64,000 bases of DNA from Bacteroides sp. 519 (GTDB taxonomy: Bacteria > Bacteroidota > Bacteroidia > Bacteroidales > Bacteroidaceae). Location of the stretch: NCBI RefSeq assembly GCF_010500955.1, contig NZ_QVMJ01000003.1, positions 369,542 through 433,541 of the forward strand. The letters run 5' to 3'. The notes beneath the pieces are model-generated. The model was not told the origin of the DNA, did no database searches, and saw only the letters and a list, made by a program, of their open reading frames with translations. This document shows positions 28,444 to 31,121 of this stretch, piece by piece. Position 1 is the first letter of the stretch. Each line of letters opens with the position of its first letter. The position numbers were made by a program, and so were the translations under genes.

Positions 28444-28578
28444 TTTAAGTTTTTAAGTTTTTAAGTTTTTAAGTTTTTGAGTTTTAGGACTTACAAAGCC
28501 TCAAAAACTAAAAAACTAACAAACTTAAAAACTCAAAAACTTAAAAACTCAAAAACTCAAAAACTCAAAAACTATAAT
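28444..28578. repeat. intergenic hairpin between sufB and sufC, AAGTTTTTGAGTTTT word class
   Basis: The left side is a run of TTTTTAAG words; the right side is ACTTAAAAACTCAAAAACTC repeated in the opposite sense. It starts at the sufB stop codon and runs to 4 bases before the sufC ATG, so no usual ribosome-binding stretch is left outside the repeat. The reading frame of sufC extends backwards through it for 35 codons of meaningless Lys/Asn/Thr-rich sequence. The same words recur at 38163-38275. Confidence 0.85.
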
Positions 28579-28581
28579 ATC

Positions 28582-29337
28582 ATGTTATTAGAAATAAAAG
28601 ACTTGCACGCAAGTATCAACGGAAAAGAGATATTAAAAGGAATCAATCTGGAAGTTAACCCGGGCGAGGTTCATGCTATAATGGGACCTAATGGTTCAGG
28701 AAAAAGTACATTAAGTAGTGTATTGGTAGGTAATCCTGCTTTCGAAGTAACCAAAGGCAGCATTACTTATCAGGGTAAGAATTTGCTCGATATGAGTCCG
28801 GAGGATAGAAGCCACGAAGGCATCTTCCTTTCTTTCCAGTATCCGGTAGAGATTCCGGGTGTTAGCATGGTTAACTTTATGCGTGCTGCAGTAAATGAGC
28901 AACGCAAATACAAAGGGTTAGCACCTCTCTCTGCAAGCGAGTTTTTAAAACTTATGCGCGAGAAACGTTCTATAGTAGAACTGGATAATAAGCTGGCCAA
29001 CCGTAGTGTGAACGAAGGATTCAGCGGTGGTGAAAAGAAACGTAACGAGATATTCCAAATGGCTATGCTCGAACCTCAATTAAGTATCCTCGACGAAACA
29101 GACTCCGGCTTGGATATTGATGCGCTTCGCATCGTGGCCGAAGGGGTGAATAAACTTAAAACTTCGGAAACAAGTTATATCGTTATTACGCACTACCAGC
29201 GTTTACTGGATTACATTAAACCGGATATTGTACATGTGCTCTATAAAGGCCGCATTGTTAAAACTGCCGGACCCGAACTGGCTTTGGAACTGGAAAAACG
29301 TGGATACGACTGGATTAAGGAGGAAATAGGAGAATAA
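28582..29337 (+). CDS. sufC: Fe-S cluster assembly ATPase SufC
   Basis: 251 residues from the ATG at 28582 ([20 protein letters not shown]). ABC ATPase of the SufBCD complex: Walker [10 protein letters not shown], signature [16 protein letters not shown], Walker [19 protein letters not shown]-loop VITHYQRLL. An upstream in-frame ATG at 28477 was rejected because its 35 codons are encoded by the intergenic repeat. In the usual operon sufC is followed closely by sufD; here a 420-base inverted-repeat element intervenes. Confidence 0.97.
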
Positions 29338-29757
29338 TTAGACACGGATGACGCGGATTACACGGATTTTAAAACACGGATTTAATATATTATGATACAT
29401 GAAGAATTAACAGGAAAGATAATTGCTGCTTTTTATGAGGTATATAATACTCTAGGGCATGGATTTTTAGAACAAGTGTATCAAAATTCTTTTTATAAAG
29501 AATTAAAAAGATTGGGGTTAAAGTGTGAGCCACAAAAAGAAATAAAGCAGTAAAACAGTTATTACCTGAGCATGAATGTCAATTGGTTAATTACCTTAAA
29601 GCAACGAATCTGGAAGTTGGTTTACTATTCAATTTTGGTTCTGTCCCCCAAGTGAAACGTAGAATACTCACCGAAGGTTATTATGATGAAATTGATGAAG
29701 AATAATAAATTAAATCCGTGTTTTAAAATCCGTGTAATCCGCGTAATCCGTGTCTAA
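29338..29757. mobile_element. putative mobile element: 47 bp inverted repeats enclosing a GxxExxY gene
   Basis: The left arm at 29338-29384 and right arm at 29711-29757 are inverted repeats matching at 46 of 47 positions (TTAGACACGGAT at the outer end, built of ACACGGATT words). They enclose one decayed GxxExxY gene. The 7-base sequence AGAATAA occurs immediately left of the element (29331-29337, containing the sufC stop) and again 3 bases right of it (29761-29767). Removing the element with one copy would leave the sufC stop 4 bases before the sufD ATG. That reconstruction is the main reason for calling it an insertion; no transposase is present. Confidence 0.6.
29392..29705 (+). pseudogene. 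decayed GxxExxY-family (PD-(D/E)XK_3) gene
   Basis: The first frame starts at 29392 (MIHEELTGKIIAAFYEVYNT), contains the family-defining GFLEQVY, and stops at 29551-29553 after 53 codons. The C-terminal half continues in another frame from about 29544 (KAVKQLLPEHECQLVNYLKA ... FGSVPQVKRRILTEGYYDEI) to the stop at 29703-29705. Compared with the family's usual length of about 125 residues, some 20-30 codons are missing at the junction, precisely the part that normally carries the Asp and ELKA catalytic motif. A deletion with a frame change therefore removed the active site. The gene sits inside 47 bp inverted repeats. The protein family has a nuclease fold but no established function. Confidence 0.85.
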
Positions 29758-29771
29758 AAAAGAATAAAGTT

Positions 29772-31121
29772 ATGAAATTAGAACAACAATATATAGACCT
29801 TTACTACGAAGCAGAAGAATTGCTACGCGCAAAAAGCACCCGCCAATTCAACGCGTACCGTAGTAAAGCCATTGCCGATTTCCGTGAGCAAGGTTTTCCA
29901 ACACGGAAGCAAGAGAACTATAAGTACACCAATATCAGCCAGTACTTTGAAACCGATTACGGATTAAACCTCAACCGTTTGAATATACCCGTAAATCCGT
30001 ACGAAGTATTTAAGTGCGATGTACCCAATATGAGTACATCCCTGTATTTTGTTGTAAACGATATGTTCTATAACAAAGCATTACCTACATACAATCTACC
30101 TAAAGGAGTTATCTTTTGTGGCTTAAACGAAGCTTATGAAAAATACCCTCATTTGGTAGAACCATATTACTGCAAACTGGCCGATACAGCCACCGATGGA
30201 ATAACCGCCTTTAATACCGCTTTTGCGCAAGATGGGGTATTCTTTTATGTTCCGGAAGGTGTGGTAGTAGAAAAGCCCATTCAGTTGGTAAATATTCTTC
30301 GGGCCGATGTAAACTTCATGGTTAACCGCCGGATGCTCATTGTTATCGAAGACGGTGCACAAGCCAAATTGCTTGTTTGCGATCATGCCATGGACGACAA
30401 AGACTTTCTTGCTACTCAGGTAACCGAAGTATTTGTTGGGAAGAATGCCACTCTCGACATATACGAACTTGAAGAAACGCATACCCGGACAGTACGCATC
30501 AGCAACCTTTATGCCAAGCAAGAGGCATCCAGCAACCTGCTTTTAAACGAAATAACCCTTCATAACGGGGTTACCCGTAATACAACCGAAGTTTCTCTGG
30601 TAGGCGAAGGAGCCGAAACTTATCTCTGCGGAATGGCCATAGCCGACAAGAAACAACATGTAGATAATAATACATCTATCAAACATATAGCACCCAACTG
30701 CAACAGCAAAGAGCTATACAAGTATGTGCTCGATAATCAAGCTGTTGGTGCCTTTGCCGGAATGGTGCTTGTTTGTCCCGGTGCTCAGCACACAAACTCA
30801 CAAATGACCAACCGCAACCTCTGCGCAACCCGCGAGGCTCGTATGTACACTCAACCTCAGCTGGAAATCTATGCCGATGATGTGAAGTGCGGACATGGGT
30901 CTACTGTAGGGCAACTGGACGAGAATGCACTCTTCTATATGCGTGCAAGAGGAATACCCGAAAAAGAAGCCCGCTTACTGTTAATGTTTGCCTTTGTAAA
31001 CGAAGTGGTAGATACCATCAGACTTGATGCACTGAAAGACAGACTGCACCACCTTGTCGAAAAACGTTTCCGTGGTGACTTGGCGCGCTGTCAAGGGTGT
31101 TCTATATGCAAGGAACTATAG
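29772..31121 (+). CDS. sufD: Fe-S cluster assembly protein SufD
   Basis: 449 residues. Third subunit of the SufBC2D scaffold. The N-terminal helical part (LYYEAEELLRAKSTRQFNAY; FPTRKQENYKYTNI) is followed by the beta-helix core shared with SufB (YADDVKCGHGSTVGQLDENA, ALFYMRARGI region). The C-terminus RCQGCSICKEL is a Cys-rich tail seen in Bacteroidota SufD. It is 33 bases upstream of sufS and preceded by the GxxExxY inverted-repeat element. Confidence 0.95.
   Translation: MKLEQQYIDLYYEAEELLRAKSTRQFNAYRSKAIADFREQGFPTRKQENYKYTNISQYFETDYGLNLNRLNIPVNPYEVFKCDVPNMSTSLYFVVNDMFYNKALPTYNLPKGVIFCGLNEAYEKYPHLVEPYYCKLADTATDGITAFNTAFAQDGVFFYVPEGVVVEKPIQLVNILRADVNFMVNRRMLIVIEDGAQAKLLVCDHAMDDKDFLATQVTEVFVGKNATLDIYELEETHTRTVRISNLYAKQEASSNLLLNEITLHNGVTRNTTEVSLVGEGAETYLCGMAIADKKQHVDNNTSIKHIAPNCNSKELYKYVLDNQAVGAFAGMVLVCPGAQHTNSQMTNRNLCATREARMYTQPQLEIYADDVKCGHGSTVGQLDENALFYMRARGIPEKEARLLLMFAFVNEVVDTIRLDALKDRLHHLVEKRFRGDLARCQGCSICKEL

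Follow-up and report, generated by a model that had tools for sequence, protein, structure and literature searches.

At the sufC-sufD junction of the window (the whole stretch of 64,000 nucleotides analysed here), a GxxExxY gene, now without its catalytic centre, lies between nearly identical inverted arms, and GxxExxY genes in several phyla tend to lie between inverted arms made of iterated units. The frequent position of the gene between such arms, and the gene-less copies of the arms that are scattered through some of the genomes carrying it, point to a form of mobile DNA that has drawn little attention and depends on one small nuclease. Taking the explanation given below as a whole, we consider it reasonably probable that the window element is a decayed gene-bearing copy of miniature mobile elements dispersed by the GxxExxY nuclease. 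The broader proposal, a widespread undescribed element class in which a lone PD-(D/E)XK nuclease of ~125 residues reads CRCNRAK arms and mobilises its gene and gene-less swarms with a lineage-specific unit code, has in our estimate slightly better than even chances.

GxxExxY is, to our knowledge, an annotated family without known function, and nothing contrary was found. A cognate, sequence-defined DNA partner turns this orphan family into a testable enzyme-substrate pair. If true, the proposal would account for part of the palindromic repeats that abound in Bacteroides and other bacteria, and would add a nuclease class that drives small mobile elements by itself; we know of no PD-(D/E)XK class previously assigned this role.

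The element at the sufC-sufD junction

The two arms of the window element (Table 1) are identical at 46 of 47 positions, as a sequence-only reading of this DNA had claimed, and their alignment score was 102, whereas 200 mononucleotide shuffles reached at most 25. When extended by repeat search, the arms reach 66 nt with 91% identity. The unit series is CACGGAT, CGCGGAT, CACGGAT, CACGGAT, with a mirrored spacing of 9, 9 and 14 bp. The same reading had spoken of ACACGGATT-type arms; these are present, but they are one form of an iterated-unit architecture that runs through the family and is not confined to ACACGGATT. AGAATAA was found on both sides as described there, and its left copy is the old end of sufC, since GGAGAATAA also closes sufC in element-free relatives. 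Reading of the ORFs gave neither another ORF nor a transposase gene between the arms besides GxxExxY. The earlier reading described GxxExxY as the sole cargo; more likely, it is the enzyme that belongs to the element itself.

Table 1. Coordinates of the element and its neighbours in the window
Feature	Position	Strand	Remarks
sufC, upstream neighbour	28582..29337	+	stop 29335-29337
AGAATAA, left flanking direct repeat	29331..29337	+	sufC end
Whole element, 420 bp	29338..29757	+	between sufC stop and sufD; absent from most relatives' readable junctions (counts in text)
Left arm	29338..29384	+	four inward CRCGGAT units at 29343, 29352, 29361, 29375
GxxExxY (PF13366/TIGR04256) N-terminal fragment	29392..29553	+	53 aa
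GxxExxY C-terminal fragment	29544..29705	+	other frame; catalytic D and E absent
Right arm, mirror image	29711..29757	-	unit outer ends 29752, 29743, 29734, 29720
AGAATAA, right flanking direct repeat	29761..29767	+	
sufD, downstream neighbour	29772..31121	+	

Both halves of the window gene match PF13366 (profile positions 2-49 and 76-116); in an intact relative (L046) they correspond to residues 1-52 and 78-120, leaving residues 53-77 (~25) missing in addition to a frame change. This deletion removed the D and E of the D...ExK motif, and the alignment to L046 thus bears out the earlier claim that the catalytic centre was lost. The N-terminal fragment scored above the curated TIGR04256 cut-off, as did the proteins of L005, L006 and L098.

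A readable sufC-sufD junction was found in 32 of 37 same-genus genomes (own included). GxxExxY is present at four of these junctions (G000, G002, G005 and G033), one copy, that of the window, being broken; two hold gene-less paired arms (G016 and G022, loci L104 and L086) and one an arm-like scar judged by eye (G009, L070). In L104, an unrelated repeat sits between the arms. The remaining 25 junctions hold neither GxxExxY nor arms. In three genomes whose sufC protein is 90-91% identical (G001, G012 and G030), the junction reads GGAGAATAA-tg-ATG, and G015, the DNA of which is ~92% identical to that of G002 here, is without the element. The 25 junctions without trace agree with the earlier claim that the element was inserted in the suf operon, and the element does not occur in all relatives.

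A poorly resolved protein tree does not place the G005 protein next to its G002 and G033 counterparts, which suggests that the suf junction was entered more than once, or that the element was replaced. The nearest relative of the G002 and G033 proteins on this tree is L046, from another site in G001. Several of the 25 element-free junctions hold other hairpin-like repeats, and the junction may therefore simply tolerate insertions.

At the sufB-sufC junction (window 28444-28578), there is another inverted repeat with 8-nt units AAAAACTY and 42-nt arms of 93% identity, within which no gene was seen. This stretch has 83 matches in the genome including itself, and its architecture is similar to that of the GxxExxY arms.

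GxxExxY genes, their arms and the protein fold

GxxExxY genes were collected from relatives, named genomes, the phylum of the window (found in 194 of 392 sampled genomes) and 24 genomes titled outside Bacteroidota. The collection consists of best matches rather than a random draw, and many of the genomes are metagenome bins with possibly misplaced contigs. In the first sample of 145 genes, from which identical proteins and short flanks had been removed, an inverted-repeat score of at least 30 was obtained for 83 genes, compared with 3 of 506 neighbouring ORFs (0.0059) and 5.5% of cross-paired flanks. Despite differing sequences, the arms have in common an inward unit C[AG]C-N-[AG]-A-[GT], apart from a few types such as AAGAACA, spaced mostly by 8-11 bp (mode 9). 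At least two inward units on both sides were found at 89 of the 145 genes and at 7 of 487 control ORFs; when the same test was performed in the outward direction, the count was 16 of 145.

The motif had been derived from these 145 genes, and it was therefore tested on 46 further genes that were unused for its definition (70 hits, 24 duplicates dropped; the genomes partly already sampled). At least two units on both sides were observed at 30 of the 46 and at 3 of 80 neighbouring ORFs (p = 3.5e-14), and the inverted repeat at 31 of the 46 and 1 of the 80. Among the 26 genes of this sample titled as other phyla, 20 were positive by inverted repeat and 15 by units. Arms are thus frequent at other GxxExxY genes, as the tie to inverted repeats proposed earlier implied, and the general absence named there as a refutation did not occur. 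Against our explanation, 77 of 191 scored genes (62 of 145 and 15 of 46) gave an inverted repeat below the threshold of 30; decay, distance or a different role are offered as causes.

Facing arm pairs 300-2500 bp apart numbered 64 in loci that had been chosen for GxxExxY. The gene was found in 54 by profile and in 8 more by position; these 62 contain no other ORF of at least 75 aa between the arms, and the two with another ORF are one locus fetched twice. At unit positions, the two arms of an element agree in 89, 70, 82 and 88 of 92 cases (shuffled means 48-57); this was set aside as evidence, since the elements had been preselected for a high inverted-repeat score and the agreement is partly built in. 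Matching of left to right arms inside a single MITE family was weak in G000, where 76 of 2000 shuffles scored as high, and none was seen in B. fragilis (1983 of 2000); orientation was set alphabetically, which confounds both counts.

In 58 proteins, D72 and K84 are invariant and E82 is found in at least 90%. A structure model built from these sequences had a pLDDT of 95.1 and replaced a low-coverage model (72.6). Its best fold match is the Cas4-type protein SSO0001 (Z 9.2, rmsd 4.6, 100 aligned), and the other matches listed are mostly PD-(D/E)XK folds (Z 5.6-7.8), including Hjc (Z 6.5) and restriction enzymes, with a few unrelated folds such as Rep15 (Z 6.0) scoring alike. A PD-(D/E)XK nuclease fold with D...ExK residues is supported by this model. 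Foldseek with the model gave no match at E <=0.001, and the class is therefore assigned without a close relative. Matches to RelE in a sequence search of solved structures were weak (E ~0.1) and were taken as chance.

Arm types, gene-less copies and mobility

For the last unit base (G or T), mapping 88 elements onto the protein tree requires 5 changes, compared with a mean of 20.5 and a minimum of 14 in 200 shuffles, and for the second unit base 16 changes against a mean of 23.9 and a minimum of 19, also in 200 shuffles. Judged from these counts, gene and arms are inherited together. That unit type tracks the protein tree fits recognition of the units by the protein, and is no proof of it.

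In the genome of the window, the frame is open in two GxxExxY genes, L005 and L006. Both are flanked by inverted arms of differing sequence (CACAGAG and CGCTGAG/CGCGGAG types), and the genome has four PF13366 matches above the curated cut-off. The window arm has 70 matches there (40 of 64 candidates scored), and besides the window pair, 31 facing arm pairs and 6 single arms were counted by eye. These pairs are gene-less copies (MITEs) of mostly ~90-160 bp. One of the MITEs (L014) has a CGC-AAG/GAG-type palindrome, which resembles the L006 arms, nested within it, and folding of three MITEs gave long hairpins (z -9 to -18). A B. fragilis arm gave 150 match rows in NZ_CP018937 and 156 in G014, corresponding to ~75 arms, since the query joined the arm to its reverse complement and each arm was listed twice. 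The G032 arm, of the AAGAACA type, has 60 matches in G032 and 10, 6, 4, 1 and 0 in G012, G000, G001, G014 and G058, respectively; G012 and G001 hold related elements of this arm type.

Arrays of three units were present in 27 of 61 genomes, and a reversed-pattern control gave 0 in all 61. Within the genus, the median was 10 arrays in genomes with GxxExxY (n = 14) and 0 in those without (n = 23), a difference with a one-sided p = 0.009 uncorrected for kinship. Counting against our explanation, arrays occur where no GxxExxY was found in G035 (78; genome 87% complete), G021 (15) and G016 (13), and the gene-bearing genomes G023, G025 and G032, as well as G029 with a gene fragment, have no triple-unit array; the different arm type of G032 lies outside the pattern. 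In 800 kb, none of 30 MITE-like pairs lies inside an ORF.

In the B. fragilis group (L240-L295), the context of MITEs is often TTTTGAG-[MITE]-nnnnATTC[AG]TTT, found on at least one side of 30 of 48 MITEs with at most one mismatch when the better orientation was chosen, a count made without a chance control; it may be a target preference or the outer part of the element. One site (L281 ~14802, L262 ~16568) holds MITEs of different unit type in two genomes, CACAGATT and CACAGAG. At two other sites (L271 ~8759 and L292; L281 ~1409 and L262), a MITE occupies the place of a terminator-like hairpin in the other genome, as judged by eye.

Whole copies of gene and arms were found at unrelated sites. 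Within one genome, L125 and L126 share 91% identity over 481 bp, arms included, and have unrelated flanks, and in the pairs L137/L150 and L163/L212, each from different genomes, homology stops at the arms or within ~30 nt of them. In L354 and L357 of one genome, the left end is exactly common and the right end differs. From these sequences, we infer that arms and gene are mobilised by GxxExxY. High numbers of copies and fragments in G460, G453 and G462, titled outside Bacteroidota (15, 9 and 9 matches including fragments), are as expected of a decaying mobile family. A search with the L006 protein gave matches in 8 of 72,556 plasmid records and in none of 50,697 phage records. In L426 (2498-2872), from a Bacteroides finegoldii record labelled as a plasmid, the order radA, GxxExxY, FAD-dependent protein is as on chromosomes.

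Twelve GxxExxY loci in Bacteroides and relatives are linked to radA. Within the genus, 5 of 24 genomes have the element immediately after radA, one has an arm remnant and 18 are without, by eye; in G018, the gene was seen in the sequence though unflagged by the script. The radA-linked proteins fall into two groups with 3 changes on the tree, which is poorly resolved (few columns; 91 of 188 inner branches open). Replacement or repeated insertion is therefore viable at radA and also explains the differing arms, and concerted evolution of the arms was not retained. With a tree of this resolution, the radA group or the suf group may have a single origin.

The check for target duplications proposed earlier had a mixed outcome, with a suggestive 7-bp AGAATAA at the window but no clear genome-wide excess. 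In the G005 element, the 9-bp AGAATAAAC lies near both ends, the left copy 7 nt from the arm. Tests of adjacent and longest common words detected no duplication in 26 G000 and 39 B. fragilis elements, many right ends in G000 being internal. A retest with outer ends used 18, 14 and 34 elements with uncertain true ends; it gave a weak excess in G000 (4 against 1.8 expected at >=6 nt) and in the G032-type set (3 against 0.9 at >=5 nt), and no excess in B. fragilis (1 against 3.2 at >=5 nt). When syntenic stretches of two B. fragilis-group genomes were compared (400 kb each, differing sites being too diverged for exact ends), many MITEs were common to both; recent movement is therefore slight in B. 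fragilis, which speaks against our explanation.

Interpretation and relation to known systems

In the explanation we favour, each family would pair a small PD-(D/E)XK nuclease, GxxExxY, with inverted arms in which a 7-bp unit is iterated. The units lie about one helical turn apart, which suggests cooperative binding on one face of the DNA, and the protein would bind them cooperatively on both arms, bring the two ends together and cut there or close by. Once released or copied, the segment would enter a new site, mostly an intergenic one, assisted by host repair. The resident protein would also mobilise in trans the gene-less MITEs that have the same arms, and this proposed movement would account for their outnumbering the gene. 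Unit binding, end cleavage, mobilisation in trans and the use of host repair are steps that we infer. The explanation draws on the recurrence of gene and arms, unit types that follow protein lineage, cognate MITEs, copies of the whole element at unrelated sites, the presence and absence of the element at sufC-sufD and radA, conserved catalytic residues and the predicted nuclease fold.

Gene-bearing (G002, G033) and gene-less (G016) arms alternate at the suf junction of close relatives, which would also fit a homing-like selfish gene whose nuclease cuts existing arms or MITEs and which is copied in by recombination, the arms being dispersed otherwise. Different arm types on one spot in two B. 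fragilis-group genomes, and proteins of two tree groups (poorly resolved) at the radA site, point the same way. Homing nevertheless leaves unexplained both the agent that disperses the arms and the fit between arm type and resident protein, and sufC-sufD and radA junctions are free of arms in many relatives; we consider it unlikely. Still less do we expect that the arms are MITEs moved by an unrelated transposase, with GxxExxY as a passenger of host or toxin-like role: the gene recurs with its own arm type across phyla, occupies 62 of the 64 long facing-arm pairs (in loci chosen for it), and has arms whose type follows the protein tree. One cargo-like case favours the passenger reading and counts against our explanation. 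L144 (2760-3457) and L146 (2760-3456), which come from two genomes and occupy unrelated sites, have an iterated palindrome and GxxExxY within a larger element of 702 bp. This element ends in terminal repeats of another kind, GCTACTCTTT, and has what look like direct repeats of 8 bp.

A regulatory or protective role, with the arms serving as operators, terminators or chromosome marks bound by GxxExxY and with elements that are domesticated instead of moving, would be consistent with the 12 loci just after radA, the lack of MITE-like pairs inside ORFs, the strong hairpins of the three folded MITEs, and the two sites at which, by eye, a MITE stands against a terminator-like hairpin in the other genome. 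The elements are, on the other hand, missing from most relatives (18 of 24 same-genus radA loci, by eye), the gene decays, as in the window copy, and some genomes hold multiple copies and fragments, so that this role appears very improbable.

Among known systems, GxxExxY and its arms are most simply read as a two-part system like REPIN-RAYT, in which REP doublets are accompanied by a REP-associated tyrosine transposase (PMC3116915, PMC8266576), with machinery that would be unrelated. As far as the available text of these papers goes, the two are alike in having extragenic, hairpin-capable inverted doublets, many gene-less copies, a gene among its own repeats, and enzyme and repeat types that co-vary. 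They differ in that GxxExxY is a predicted PD-(D/E)XK nuclease and RAYT an HUH/Y1 transposase, and in that the GxxExxY arms are arrays of 7-bp units whereas REPIN are built on a single REP palindrome. Each RAYT is described there as single copy, whereas GxxExxY has whole gene-plus-arms copies at other sites and several genes per genome, up to 15 matches. Inside the GxxExxY elements, no HUH/Y1 transposase was found, the gene matching TIGR04256 and 62 of the 64 arm pairs having no other ORF.

MITEs derived from DDE insertion sequences are short and gene-less, have terminal inverted repeats and occur in many copies. The gene-less GxxExxY-arm copies are likewise short and numerous with inverted ends; unlike in DDE-derived MITEs, the arms enclose no transposase ORF, the gene-bearing form encodes only GxxExxY, and target duplication is at most suggestive. 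The BrickBuilt MITE of Porphyromonas gingivalis (PMC4596501) is similarly intergenic, MITE-like, built of tandem repeats and found in Bacteroidota, but its unit is a 23-nt tandem repeat, and the abstract does not mention GxxExxY. Our search of the open-licence literature (subscription papers and preprints lay outside it) returned no description of the association of GxxExxY with arms.

With Cas4, Hjc and type II restriction enzymes, GxxExxY has in common the predicted fold and the D...ExK residues; it differs in lying, at the loci read, within its own arms, often just after an unrelated gene such as radA. The L005 protein gave a weak match to PADLOC Cas4 (E 0.007). According to the available text of PMC8934634, one gene beside a reverse transcriptase was called GxxExxY by a pipeline and cas4 by another tool.
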